Shown in pieces: positions 995-8,286 of a stretch of 64,000 bases of DNA. The translations under genes and the position numbers were made by a program. The stretch comes from Hexactinellida sp. DTS-2022. Its lineage: Eukaryota > Porifera > Hexactinellida. The stretch lies in the NCBI GenBank assembly GCA_028753945.1, contig JAPNXP010000010.1, forward strand, positions 5,831,042 to 5,895,041, in the 5' to 3' direction. The notes below the pieces were generated by a model. It was given only the letters and a program-made list of their open reading frames with translations, was not told where the DNA came from and did no database searches. Each line of letters begins with the position of its first letter. The stretch's first letter is position 1.

Positions 995-1311
995 CTAATC
1001 ATCATCATCGGATAATTCAGCTAAGGCTATCTTCATGACGTCTCTAATTTCCCTTTTTTTCCTAGGATCTGATTCCAGCTCTGATTTAAAAGCTCCTTTC
1101 TCAGATAACATCCATTCCAGATCTGAAATTATAAATAGTATTTATAATTTTAAATATCAAGAAGGAATTATAATAGAAAATGTTATCAATATTTAAAATT
1201 TTTAGAATTTGTTTTGCTTGTTTTTTATTAGTTAGTTAGTTAGTTTATTTGTTTGTTTGTGTTTGTATGTTTGTTTGTTTGTTTGTTTGTTTGTTAGTTT
1301 GTTTGTTTTTT

Positions 1312-1347
<36 letters not shown>

Positions 1348-2903
1348 TTTGTTTGTTTGTTTGTTTGTTTGTTTGTTTGTGTATTTATACCTTGTATTCT
1401 AAGATTCATTCCATCAAACGTGTGCGGACCAATCAACTGTGCCTTGAGGTCTCCCTCTAGGTATATAAATAGAGTAGGCAGGTTCTTGTCCGGATAGTTC
1501 TGTATACAATCAGTTGAAATAGAACGGATGAACTTAGTGTGCTGGAATTTAACTGCCAATTCTCCCAAATGTTTGTTTATCAAGTTACACAATGGGATAG
1601 TACAAGAGTTAAGGAAAACAAACAATAACAATAATAAAACAATATAATTAGGTCTGCTTATTGTGAACAATTATTCGTCTGCTTTATAATAAAACTTAGT
1701 ATTATGAACAAGCCCTATGGTCCAAATTTAAAAACTTACATAGGGTTTGTATTACGTTGAGTTCGCATATTATGAAGTCTCTCTATTATGAACACAATTT
1801 TTGGTTTAATAAAAGAAATATTTTCTGTTGGGATTAATTTTAAAACCTAAAACCTGGAAATAAATTGCGAATTCGTCATTGTAGAATCAGGTACATGTAC
1901 AGTCGAAACCGGGTTTTTCTAACTAATCGGTTTTTTCTAACTAACTATTTATTCTAAATGTGTAAGAAATTCCAACTTAGTTTTATTTTCAATCGGTTTA
2001 TTATAAGTTATAACTATCGGATTTTTCTTACTTTATTTCCATGCAAAGAATTGGTTAGAACAAAAACCGGTTTCAACTGTATATAGTATAGTTTAACGGC
2101 CGTTATAACAGCATAGTTGTATTGAGGATATTTGTGTTGGTAGAGGTGCAATATAACCCATATTCCTTTCCCAGCCTTGTTAACCTGGGGAATATAATCC
2201 GCTGCGGTTATTTCTAGCAAAGAACCGAAAGTAGGCAGAGAATGTGTCGCCATCATCTCTGCCATTCTCTGAGATCTGCAGAGTATTAGCCAATTAAATG
2301 CTAGCTTTTAAGCCTACATTCACTAACCAAACTACTTATATTATTACAAATTCAAATTATAAGATATTAGTTAACATATTGAGACAATTAAATTCCGAAA
2401 ATGTTTTGAGAAACAAGACCTCGTTAGTACGAACACGGATAATGCGAAATTCAAGTTAATTATACGAACACTATTTTAGTCCCCTTCAAAGCTTTTTCAA
2501 TACATATGAGATTGGTTAATACGAATTTCGGATAAGGCGTAATAATTTGACGGTCCCTTGGTGTTCGTACTAACAAGGTTCTACTGTATACATATCATTA
2601 ACCTACGTATACTTCTATATTTGTTTCGTACTAACGAGGTTCTACTGTCCACATATTTATTAACCTATATTTATGCAGTGCTCTCTCGTTCTCAATATCC
2701 TCCATCTCATCCAACTCATCTATGCTCATATCCTCCAGAGGCTTAGCTGTCCCTCTCAGCTCCTCTGCTAGCTTATTAGCAGCAGCCGTCTCTACCAACC
2801 GAGATATCTCATCCTCAGATATCCCGGTGGTGGGCTTAGGGGGCAGGATGCCCTTAGAGCGGAGGATGTCGTTCCATTCTGTGTCCTCGTTAGGGTCCTG
2901 CAT
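995..2903 (-). CDS. PDCL3: Phosducin-like protein 3, four exons
   Basis: Co-chaperone of the phosducin family (viral IAP-associated factor), thought to help the CCT chaperonin fold its clients. Exons on the minus strand: 2903-2665, 2275-2132, 1599-1391 and 1122-995, which join in phase to give 239 residues, the same length I recall for human PDCL3. Exon 1 has the family start [19 protein letters not shown]. Exons 2-3 give the thioredoxin-like domain ([12 protein letters not shown], then [31 protein letters not shown] and FDGMNL). Exon 4 ends in an acidic tail (four Asp). Introns 1 and 3 are GT-AG. Intron 2 has no usable GT-AG pair but fits an AT-AC U12-type intron exactly, restoring the conserved reading LYQHNIPLC. 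All introns carry transposon-like repeats. Confidence 0.93.
1230..1380. repeat. TTAG / TTTG simple-repeat tract in PDCL3 intron 3
   Basis: Runs of (TTAG)n and (TTTG)n fill most of the 268-base intron 3 and end about ten bases from its donor. The same TTAG repeat returns in long arrays at 23.9-27.2 kb. Confidence 0.9.
1600..2131 (-). other. AT-AC U12-type (minor spliceosome) intron 2 of PDCL3
   Basis: On the minus strand the intron begins ATATCCTC (2131 downward) and ends AC (1601-1600). The branch motif TTCCTTAAC lies at 1616-1608, identical to the U12 branch consensus, with the branch A about nine bases from the 3' end. Joining exon 2 to exon 3 here gives phase 2 to phase 2 and the conserved LYQH-N-IPLC. 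The intron also contains two palindromic elements (1649-1806 and 1900-2079). Confidence 0.88.
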
Positions 2904-4765
2904 ACTATGTATAGTCTTATTGTTATACAGTGTATAATGTGCATACTATAGTCTTATTGTTATATCTATATATTAAAAGCGGAATTGTTGTGTGTGTGTG
3001 TGTGGGGATGTTTGTCCGTAATTAATTGAAAAGACCATACTACCTAGAAAGCTGAGATTTGGTATATAGGAGTAGTTTGTCATAGCGACATGGGTCTGTT
3101 GGTTTTCTAAGCGAAATATTGTGAGCATGACATGACACGGTAACCTTTTCCTTAATAACTTTTGCAAATTTGACTCCGTTAGTATAAATTTTATATGAAA
3201 ATCGACAACACATAATGGAACACCTTTGTGAAAATTATCAATTTTTACGAACTTACATAGCGAAAGTTATTAGTTAAAATGTGTCCTATTATTTTTAACA
3301 CTATGTGGGTGATCTGATTTGTTTGGTTAACAAGAATTCGCTTAGAGTAGTTAATTTCTCTAATGCATTGTTTATTTATTACACCTATATTGGCTTCCTA
3401 TAATAAGACTATCAATGGGATTACGTAATTTCTAACCTAGGATTTCTACAGAAATTAATTAAGTTAAGTAATCTAGGATTTTTGGTTCTGCCTATAACGA
3501 TGAGATTTATTATGTTAATTATTAGTAGTTTATTACTATCAATTAAATTAAATAATTCACTAACCCAGCTCCTGCAAAAAGAATTGTTTATTGAGATGTA
3601 GAACTTTATTACTATTTATAAATCAAATATTTTGCAACCCTGGATTTACCTCTCCATAATAATGGTTTAATGGTGAGAATAAGACCGCGAAGCGGTCTTA
3701 TTCTCATCTTTAAACCATTATTATGGAGAGATTACACCCAGAGTTAGTAAATTACTTTGCAATACAACTTACTGAAATAATTAATTGCGTATAATTTACC
3801 AACCACAGGTCTCAATTTATTTGAGCTAACAAGCTGAACCTTTTAATATAGCTGAACGAGCTATCCTTAAGAATTATTGAGCTATTAATTAACTAATAAT
3901 TAATAACTATTGAGCAATGAGAATAACTTACTCAACATAATTCCCCAAACAAATTACAGGAATCACAACCCAAAATGAATTTTAGGCACGCGTTATTAAG
4001 TAATAGTGTGTAATTCACTAGCCACAGGTGAAACTGAATAGTAATACTATATAGCTTTTTGGGAAGGGAAAGGCCGCGAAGCGGCCGTTAATTGTATCGC
4101 GTAGTGAATAACACGAACGAACAAAAGTCGCGAAGCGACTTTTGTGAGAGAGAGATCCGTCGCGAAGCGACCGAGACCGAAGGGCTCGTAGTGTATAATG
4201 TATAATGACATACTATGTATAGTCGTATTATTATTATGTAATGTATACATTAATGATAAGGGAATCCAGCTAAACTACAAAAATTTTCGCTTTTCCTATT
4301 TAGATATACAGTATACTCCGCTTAAAGCTTAATAGAGCCACCGGTTAATAGATTTCTCCACTTAATAAGGTTAAAATTTCGCAGGATTTATAGGACGGGA
4401 TTACATTTTGGCTTAAAATATTTTCGGTATTAAAATAGATTTCTCCGCTTAATCTGGTCAAAGTAACCTGGTCCCGAGGTGACTCTATTAAGCGGAGTCG
4501 ACTGTAGTAAAATTATGAAATATAAACAAACAAACAAATGAAAATAATAATATATATTGAACAGAAATTAATCAATAATTAAAACGTTGAATAGAGATAA
4601 TAAGGTTATGAGAATAAAATTTGATAAGACATTTATAAGTGATACATGTGAACTAGTAAATACCCCAAAAAAGGCCTAATTACCGAGTAAACACGACCAA
4701 ACAACAACAACAAATCTAACTATAATAAATAGTAAGTAAATATGACGTCACACAATTCGTAACGA
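2904..4765. repeat. Repeat-rich intergenic region with short CGCGAAGCG hairpins
   Basis: No gene seen between PDCL3 and the B56 gene. Contents: a TG-rich start (2990-3003) followed by TTTGTCCG, which resembles the ends of some Helitron or LINE copies but is not diagnostic. Palindromes centred on CGCGAAGCG lie at about 3655-3732, 4068-4088, 4125-4145 and 4158-4172. A CCGCTTAAT-type palindromic element lies at 4309-4504. Confidence 0.6.
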
Positions 4766-6166
4766 TTATTTACGAAGAGCCATCCCTTCTAATTTCTGCC
4801 AAACAATTTCTCTTTCTTTCCGTTTCGATTCAGCATTTTCTTTGTCATCCCGAAACCTCGATTCGAGTCCGTCATATAATTGCGGACTCATTGTACGAAA
4901 CGATTTCAGGACATTTGATATCATTTCTACGATATTTGCATTCCATTGACCCCCGTGTGCTGTCACGAGAGGACCGTACATTATAGGGAGAATTCCCTGT
5001 ACGTTCTCTTCGATAAGATTAAAAACATAATCGTTATTCCAGAAATAAAGTGCCCTTTCTGCTACCTGAAAATGCGGTGATTGTACACATTGGGAAATCC
5101 GTGTGAATAGAAATGTTAGAATCTTAACAAATTGGGGTGGGTCAATTACGTCCAATATTTCCTCAATTTCGTTCAAAAGCATTACTTCTTTGCTACTGCA
5201 TGTTTTGGGCCATAAACGTAGTATGCCTTGTATAACAGATTCGGTTAAAGTAGAATCTTTTTCTAAGAATTGTATGATGCAATAGGTTAATTGTGGGTGG
5301 TATAAGTATAGGGATTTTGGCTTATGCAAGGGTACTAAAACTTTGTGTAAGAAAGTTTTGTGTTCGGAGCGTAATGGTAATGCAAATCCGTTAATTATGC
5401 TTCCAAGTATCTCAAGTAATTCTGCTATACCAAAGAACTTTTCAATTTCAAATGTGTAGCGAAGAAATATATTGTTTACTTGTTTACGAATAAACGCACG
5501 TAAACCAAGGAATTTCCCGTAAATTCGATGAAGAACAGTTTTCAGATAATCCCTTTCCCGTGGATCTTCTGAGTCAAACAAATCGATAAGTTGAACCACA
5601 AAATTTTGGTTTATAAACTTTTTAGCTAATTGTGGATTGAAGTCTGGATATTCAAGGAATTTTACAAAAAATTCATAAACCAATTGTAAATGCGACCATG
5701 AAGCTTCCAAAATTGGTTCATCCTCGTCTGGATCGAATTCCTCACGTTCATTCGGTGGCAACGAACGTAATACATTAGTAGCTACCATAGAAATAATCGG
5801 TTGATAAATTACTTCGCCTAATACGCCTCTATTTGTACTTATATACTCAATAAGTTCGTTTAAGCAAGCACGTTTAATTTCCTTTGCACGTATGTCACTG
5901 CCATTATCCATGAAATTAAATACAAGCGAAGTGAGGGTTAATTTCTTCTTCAAAAGCTCAGTCTGTTGGTCGGTTGGCGTATCTTTCAAAAGAGGCAATT
6001 CCGGGATTTCCCTTTGTTGAGTTGTAGCCGGACGAATGTAGGTGCCCGATTGACTTGTTCGTTTTTGTGGTTGGCCATTATGAAGTCTGTCAGCTTTGGA
6101 TTTGTTTATGAAGTGAGAGGAAATTATGTTTTTTGGTTTGGCTTTGTGGTGAGAAAGGTCTGCCAT
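4766..6166 (-). CDS. PPP2R5: PP2A regulatory subunit B56 (B')
   Basis: Regulatory subunit that steers the protein phosphatase 2A core enzyme to its substrates. It is a single exon of 466 residues, normal for the family's shorter members. After a variable basic N-terminus of about 55 residues, the conserved HEAT-like superhelix runs from about residue 60 to 440. Family signatures: [59 protein letters not shown] and [11 protein letters not shown]. The tail is charged ([19 protein letters not shown]). Start chosen at the first ATG of the open frame. The missing introns are notable beside the intron-bearing neighbours, but the frame is intact. Which vertebrate isoform it matches cannot be said. 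Confidence 0.95.
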
Positions 6167-6813: not shown

Positions 6814-7851
6814 CTAATCTTCGAATTCGAGAGCTCTTTTAGCCATCAAAATAACACCTTCCTTCGTAACATTACCACCAGTAAAACCATTTGAATGCAC
6901 AAATGTACAATTCTCGATTCCAGTTATTTCACTAAGTTTATCATCTCTCAAACCTCTCCAAGGCTCTGGCAAAGATTTCCGATTTTCAAAACGCTGTAAA
7001 ACCTTATTTACGCACTGTATACGCCACATTCCGTTATCATCTTTATACAAAACAAATTTAACTCTACCAACAATATCACGTTCAATTTCAATTTCATACA
7101 AATGATCTTTCCAAGGACAGAATTGAGTTAGCATTATTATCTGACAACTAGATTCCAAATTGATTGCATGCAAAAATGCATTTTCTACCAAATGTTTTGC
7201 CGGAAGCCAAATATTAACTAAACCCTTAATTCGCGAAGAAAACTCATTTCCAACCAATTCCATTGCTTCGGGAAATATTTCGTCGAAATTCTTATTTGCA
7301 ATATTCCACGCTGGAACAAGGTGAGAAACCCGGTTGGATACCGTTGTGGTTATTTGGAATTTGGGATCGCCTTCGAATTGTGAAATTCCATTATCATTTG
7401 CGTCTATTTCTTCCATAAAATTTTCGTATATTTTCTGATAAATAATCTCCAAATTCGGATCATCCAAATCGAGTTTTGAAATTATAGAAACAACAAAATG
7501 TCCGAAATGAAAATAAACTAACCCAGCGCTACTAAGCTTAGTCATCCATTTATATTTCCCTCCACTTAGCGAATGCATTGATTCATTAAATTCCCTTTGA
7601 TGATGATCGTATCTATGTATAGAGGTGTCAAAAACCGAACCAACATCAACAACAACATCGCAGTCATTGAGAACACTCGGATCGCGTGACCGAATAATTT
7701 TCGCGTTTGAACATTTCGGTATTATTTTTAGCATATAACAAGCTAGTGCGTCATCACAGTGGAAAGCGCCGTTATGAGTTCCAATCGAATTGATTGGTTT
7801 ATCAAATGCGTTATGCGAATATTTAGCCATTCTAATTAGGAGACTACGCAT
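6814..7851 (-). CDS. MYG1: MYG1 exonuclease homologue (DHH-like)
   Basis: Member of the MYG1/GAMM1 family, a 3'-5' RNA exonuclease reported in nucleus and mitochondria. The frame has HNGAFHCDDALACYML near the N-terminus, VVVDVG, and RYDHHQREF, the metal-binding DHH-like motifs. A conserved middle and C-terminus ends in FVHSNGFTGGN. The usual HCDE is HCDD here, a conservative change. The open frame extends above the ATG at 7851, which gives 345 residues starting MRSLLIRMAKYSH. That start is arginine-rich and would suit a mitochondrial leader. A 5' exon cannot be excluded, because the frame stays open upstream of this ATG. Same strand as its neighbours; no introns seen. Confidence 0.93.
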   Translation of the reverse strand: MRSLLIRMAKYSHNAFDKPINSIGTHNGAFHCDDALACYMLKIIPKCSNAKIIRSRDPSVLNDCDVVVDVGSVFDTSIHRYDHHQREFNESMHSLSGGKYKWMTKLSSAGLVYFHFGHFVVSIISKLDLDDPNLEIIYQKIYENFMEEIDANDNGISQFEGDPKFQITTTVSNRVSHLVPAWNIANKNFDEIFPEAMELVGNEFSSRIKGLVNIWLPAKHLVENAFLHAINLESSCQIIMLTQFCPWKDHLYEIEIERDIVGRVKFVLYKDDNGMWRIQCVNKVLQRFENRKSLPEPWRGLRDDKLSEITGIENCTFVHSNGFTGGNVTKEGVILMAKRALEFED

Positions 7852-8286
7852 CAACCGATTGGGCAAATGGAATGTTCTAGAATAAGTAGCTAATATAATA
7901 AGACAAGGTTAAGTCAAGGAATAATATATAAATACTGAAACAAATAGTATGTACAGTAGAACTTTGTTAATACCTACACCAAGGGACTGTCAAAATGTGT
8001 ACTCCTTATCCGAAATTCGTATTAACAAGTATCATTTGCAAGAAAACTCGGTTAAAAAAGGTGAATTTTGATGTTAAATAATGACCTTGTAAGTTCCTGA
8101 AAATGACCTTAAAAAAGGTGTTGGCCGATATTTCAATATTCTTAACAATAATTGAATACATAAACCTGGCAATAAGAATAAAATAGAGCTTAAAACGAAC
8201 AATTTACATAATAAATCTAGATAAATACACAATAAACAGTTCAATATAATTCATCATAATTCACACACTACGCTAGTTAGTTACAA
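7852..8286. repeat. Intergenic with two truncated palindromic elements
   Basis: A left half of a CAGTAGAAC-type element starts at 7954 (TACAGTAGAACTTTGTTAATAC). A GGTGTTGGCCGATAT end lies at about 8113-8130. No coding signal. Confidence 0.6.

Follow-up and report, generated by a model that had tools for sequence, protein, structure and literature searches.

Introns of the U12 type are characterised by a donor of the form RTATCCTT and a branch site of the form TTCCTTRAY. In animals, AT-AC introns of this type begin with ATATCC and have a branch site resembling TTCCTTAAC near their 3' end. According to PMC3584512, donor and branch sequences define these introns, a distinct pyrimidine tract is absent, and the distance from the branch site to the 3' end has its optimum at 11–13 nt; the study showing that pairing of U6atac with the donor is needed is also cited there. 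AT-AC termini are found in U2-type introns as well: in the sodium channel genes, every intron of this kind has G at +5 (PMC2831892), and Table 2 of that paper gives PHB2, STX6, KCMF1 and SLC9A7 as genes whose AT-AC introns are common to fly and human.

Our literature search returned nothing linking PDCL3 to U12-type or minor introns, and no study of minor introns in Amphimedon or Porifera, some candidates having been judged by title alone. The words sponge, Porifera and Amphimedon are absent from the main text of a survey of more than 3000 genomes (PMC10639083), whose supplements may include sponges, and from the main texts of PMC7367187 and PMC6865273.

The PDCL3 gene and its second intron

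The window, which is the whole stretch of 64,000 nucleotides analysed here, carries a four-exon PDCL3 gene on the minus strand, from 2903 to 995. PDCL3 is a phosducin-like co-factor of the TRiC chaperonin. The features of the gene are as follows, with the basis of each in brackets.

2665..2903, minus strand: PDCL3 exon 1, ATG at 2903 (gene model and human PDCL3 alignment)
2276..2664, minus strand: intron 1, GT-AG, major type, 389 nt, phase 2 (gene model)
2132..2275, minus strand: PDCL3 exon 2, 3' end ...LYQH-AA (gene model and human PDCL3 alignment)
1600..2131, minus strand: intron 2, AT-AC, very probably U12-type, 532 nt, phase 2 (gene model and junction enumeration)
2124..2131, minus strand: predicted 5' splice site ATATCCTC of intron 2 (sequence; pairing with U6atac and U11)
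1898..2081, minus strand: MITE-like element, TA-bounded, with inverted ends TACAGTTGAAACCGG / CCGGTTTCGACTGTA, 14/15 complementary (repeat search)
1630..1805, minus strand: second dispersed repeat, which stops shortly upstream of the branch motif (repeat search)
1608..1618, minus strand: predicted branch motif TTTTCCTTAAC (sequence; U12 pairing of 9 bp, -9.0 kcal/mol by duplexfold)
1600..1601, minus strand: AC 3' end, 9 nt past the second A of the branch motif (sequence)
1391..1599, minus strand: PDCL3 exon 3, start T-IPLC (gene model and human PDCL3 alignment)
1123..1390, minus strand: intron 3, GT-AG, major type, 268 nt, phase 1 (gene model)
995..1122, minus strand: PDCL3 exon 4, including the stop (gene model)

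Given the AT-AC intron 2, an uninterrupted frame runs from ATG to TAG and encodes 239 amino acids. The joined protein aligned with human PDCL3 (PDB 7nvm chain P) over residues 1–227 of 239 at 247.9 bits, above the unnamed entry 2dbc (122.2 bits) and PDCL2 (117.1 bits), and contained the Pfam family Phosducin (59.5 bits). Relatives of PDCL3 were not found in the viral and prokaryote contig collections. The alignment with human PDCL3 has gaps in the linker near residues 25–70, and the C-terminus is unaligned.

Intron 2 reads ATATCCTC...TTTTCCTTAACTCTTGTAC, from its first base, A at 2131, to its last, C at 1600. The initial annotation had placed the intron at 1600..2131, with the junction at 2132/1599; these coordinates proved exact, and the spliced frame is open throughout. 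The reading LYQH-N-IPLC, which that annotation proposed as restored by splicing, corresponds to LYKQGIPLC in human PDCL3, and the two proteins align without a gap across the junction. Exactly one residue between LYQH and IPLC is given by four junctions, with termini AA-GT, AA-TA, AT-AC and TA-CT, among which only AT-AC represents known splice termini. Slid splice sites giving the same mRNA are impossible, since the bases flanking the junction differ.

The ATATCC donor, perfect branch motif and AC acceptor claimed for this intron were all found. The donor ATATCCTC matches RTATCCTT at 7 of 8 positions, the mismatch being C at +8, and the branch sequence TTCCTTAAC matches TTCCTTRAY at 9 of 9, with TT immediately before it. 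The termini are unmixed AT-AC and the last six bases are TTGTAC. A polypyrimidine tract is absent, the space from the branch A to the exon being spanned by CTCTTGTAC only; the 9 nt between the second A and the 3' end are a short distance, under the optimum of 11–13 nt.

The MITE-like element ends in TACAGTCGAAACCGG and is 86–90% identical to the copies listed elsewhere in the genome, which number at least several dozen (including loci L002–L008). Because the two repeats together fill about 360 of the 532 nt, the intron in its older state was probably far shorter. Other features were also observed. The window contains a near-perfect 39-nt palindrome at 3650–3730 (95%, 3-nt loop, GACCGCTTCGCGGTC core), similar CTTCGCG hairpins near 4080–4150, a PP2A B56 regulatory subunit in a single uninterrupted frame of 466 aa (4766–6166) and MYG1 in a single frame of 364 aa (6814–7908). 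At another locus (L030, 1–1574), a long tandem array with the in-frame repeat SVLTRYYSTI adjoins a Band_7 gene.

Minor-spliceosome RNAs and proteins

The initial annotation implied a working minor spliceosome in this organism and had named the absence of its RNAs from the genome as a ground for giving up the splice model. The Rfam models RF00548, RF00007, RF00618 and RF00619 were run on the whole genome and the best candidates were scored. Three RNAs were found over the cut-off, each at one locus at least: U11 (104.4 bits, cut-off 39), U12 (65 bits, cut-off 53) and U6atac (60.3 bits, cut-off 33; C17:36584-36681, L012). U4atac, also with at least one locus, scored 45.4 bits, under its cut-off of 53. 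The loci other than that of U6atac lie at C7:420693-420833, C7:3427008-3427136 and C11:232422-232537.

The candidate U4atac locus nevertheless appears convincing because of its complementarity to the genome's own U6atac. The 5' part of U4atac, GUCCUUAUCGAGGG, matches CCCUCGAUAAGGAC of that U6atac as an exact reverse complement, giving 14 uninterrupted Watson-Crick pairs. The Rfam consensus U4atac and U6atac form 8 consecutive pairs at that place; when either RNA of this genome is combined with the consensus partner, no run of pairs, whatever their kind, exceeds 9, or 8 at that place. Consensus lines are not actual RNAs, so that the comparison serves as a guide only. A second U4atac-U6atac helix pairs UUGCUGAC with GUUAGCAG (8 pairs, two of them G-U).

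Relatives of three minor-spliceosome proteins were also found. The SNRNP35 relative (C5:584251) scored 178.6 bits with U11/U12-35K; the next distinct entry, a U1A/U1-70K fusion, reached 92.2. A two-RRM protein at C11:533270 (L019) scored 98.8 bits with RNA-binding protein 40, taken here to be RNPC3, and 60.6 with RBM41, while the locus at C9:1848476 (L018) gave 87.7 bits to RBM41 and 51.9 to RNA-binding protein 40. It is these PDB comparisons that tell the two loci apart; the RNPC3 query segment, for its part, reached 51.3 bits on the RBM41 locus and a lower 37.5 bits on the RNPC3 locus. The genome search returned no match for SNRNP25, ZMAT5 or PDCD7, a weak result, given divergent families and searches split by exons; the PDCD7 control matched nowhere. 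The four snRNA loci and the relatives of SNRNP35, RNPC3 and RBM41 represent a credible machine and support the minor spliceosome that had been claimed.

Class of intron 2 and alternative readings

We propose that intron 2 of PDCL3 is very probably a U12-type AT-AC intron, removed by the minor spliceosome. The assignment is based on its donor and branch signals, on the single protein-consistent junction with known termini and on the minor-spliceosome loci of the genome. Motif pairs alone are weak evidence: on both strands of the window there are 49 ATATCC words and five ATATCC..TTCCTTRAC..AC pairs within 1500 nt, and order-1 Markov controls also give some (mean 0.45 pairs; one or more pairs in 50 of 200 sequences). 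Among the five, only the donor of intron 2 has T at +7. It is the occurrence of a pair at the junction required by the protein that makes the case for this intron strong. Considering base composition only, the joint chance of an [AG]TATCC donor, an AC or AG end and, at one of 13 allowed spacings, TTCCTTAAC is about 4e-9 at a fixed junction and about 2e-8 over the four one-residue junctions.

The other readings of the locus are far less probable. A conventional GT-AG intron with other borders, removed by the major spliceosome and leaving an insertion or deletion in the protein, could draw on 56 pairs with an open frame, so that the earlier statement that no GT-AG pair joins the exons holds only in the sense that none is acceptable by the protein reading. 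Every one of these pairs costs at least 20 residues or adds at least 37 where human PDCL3 aligns without a gap: three lose a single reference residue and insert 37, 38 or 59, the mildest of them being 2077..1654 with the 37-residue insertion, and the remaining 53 lose at least 20. The 50 open-frame GC-AG pairs include some that lose one residue and insert 48 or 49 and some that lose 6 or 7 and insert 18 or 20, all others losing at least 20. These alternatives were ranked by rising damage, and the best 40 of 56 GT-AG and the best 40 of 50 GC-AG pairs were listed. As a GT-AG intron would also leave unexplained why a U12 donor and a branch motif coincide precisely at this junction (chance about 2e-8), we consider this reading very improbable.

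We regard as equally improbable that the major spliceosome handles intron 2 as an AT-AC intron. Such introns exist, for example in sodium channel genes (PMC2831892), and those have G at +5, whereas intron 2 has C at this position. Its donor is of the U12 form, its branch motif is perfect and the minor snRNA set is present in the genome, all of which argue against a U2-type intron. A decayed or mis-assembled copy of PDCL3, with no working gene, would fit with the two repeats inside intron 2 and is hardly credible otherwise: the reading frame is open and in phase in each of the four exons, and both flanking introns are ordinary GT-AG introns. In addition, exons 2–4 had no second copy among 67 DNA matches, a weak point, since the best 40 of 5188 candidates were scored with a query without exon 1. 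On the sequence evidence, then, the splice model of the initial annotation, with its U12-type AT-AC intron, is almost certainly right.

In this model, U11 and later U6atac would pair with ATATCCTC at the 5' end of intron 2, and U12 would pair with TTTTCCTTAAC, bulging the branch A. The minor spliceosome would then cut out 2131..1600 and leave an mRNA for the complete PDCL3 of 239 residues. Transcription of PDCL3, assembly of the snRNPs and the splicing itself are presumed to take place accordingly.

The U6atac of this genome has GAGAGGAGAGACGG in place of the Rfam consensus GAAAGGAGAGAAGG, that is, A to G plus a nearby A to C. In the register that we assume for the pairing of U6atac and donor, the A to G change faces donor base +8. 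The duplex of the C donor reaches -7.9 kcal/mol with the U6atac of this genome and -4.2 kcal/mol with the consensus U6atac, while for a donor with T at +8 the two values are -6.7 and -6.6 kcal/mol, respectively. U11 is unchanged from the consensus, and its pairing with the intron 2 donor is weakened (-3.1 against -5.4 kcal/mol for the consensus donor) because the donor has C in place of the usual T at +8. It is conceivable, and in our judgement unlikely, that the minor spliceosome has been retuned in this lineage, the G of U6atac pairing with C at +8, with few minor introns left. If so, other minor introns here should have C at +8 far more often than those elsewhere in animals, where +8 is rich in T. 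Co-evolution cannot be shown from one intron only; the U6atac change offers a straightforward way of testing whether snRNA and splice site have evolved together.

Search for further minor introns and comparison with known systems

In limited motif scans of the genome, no second convincing minor intron was found, a negative of little weight given that any one form of the motif picks up only a fraction of such introns. The short-intron pattern matched 3 times, and its reversed control 7 times. Loci L014 and L015 were rejected on reading the sequence, as they contain no introns, and L013, with an ATATCCTGGA donor and an TTCCTTGAC branch, was rejected because its whole span lies inside one open frame of 744 residues. 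A search for TTTTCCTTAAC plus a following YAS yielded 34 rows, and its control 67; these numbers do not point to a large set of minor introns. Thirty of the 34 rows made loci, of which 12 represented one repeat (AAACTCCAC) and were dropped; among the 18 scanned, only the PDCL3 intron (L052) presented an RTATCCT donor with coding sequence on both sides. L063, which has ATATCCTCA at a distance of 533 nt upstream, appeared non-coding on inspection and was rejected, and the mutual near-copies L067 and L068 give an open frame on joining, with GTATCCAAT as the donor. Across 45 loci (L002–L046), 23 donors with an open joined frame were found, none of them convincing by eye. If minor introns are indeed few in this genome, the whole machine would be kept for a handful of introns.

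The genes with AT-AC introns common to fly and human were also considered. No convincing minor intron was found in STX6, read around the matched exon, or in the Na/H exchanger loci, covered by a motif scan. PHB2 (L036, 1686–1953) has a GT-AG intron after DLQIVNI and a second donor, GTAAGT, after EAKQ; both PHB2 donors read here are of the major type, GTAAG.

The analysis provides an exact gene model where a predictor limited to GT-AG introns would be expected to break PDCL3, and shows a set of minor-spliceosome RNAs in an animal genome of a kind for which we found no study of minor introns. In comparison with the known minor snRNAs, all four families are represented, and the U11 5' end AAAAAGGG and the U12 sequence GUAAGGAAAA are kept; the differences from the Rfam consensus are the GAGAGGAGAGACGG of U6atac and a U4atac-U6atac helix altered on both sides. 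Intron 2 shares with the AT-AC U12-type introns of animals the AT-AC ends, the ATATCC donor and the TTCCTTAAC-like branch site, and is located in a gene different from PHB2, STX6, KCMF1 and SLC9A7. It is a new example of a class of introns that is itself already known.
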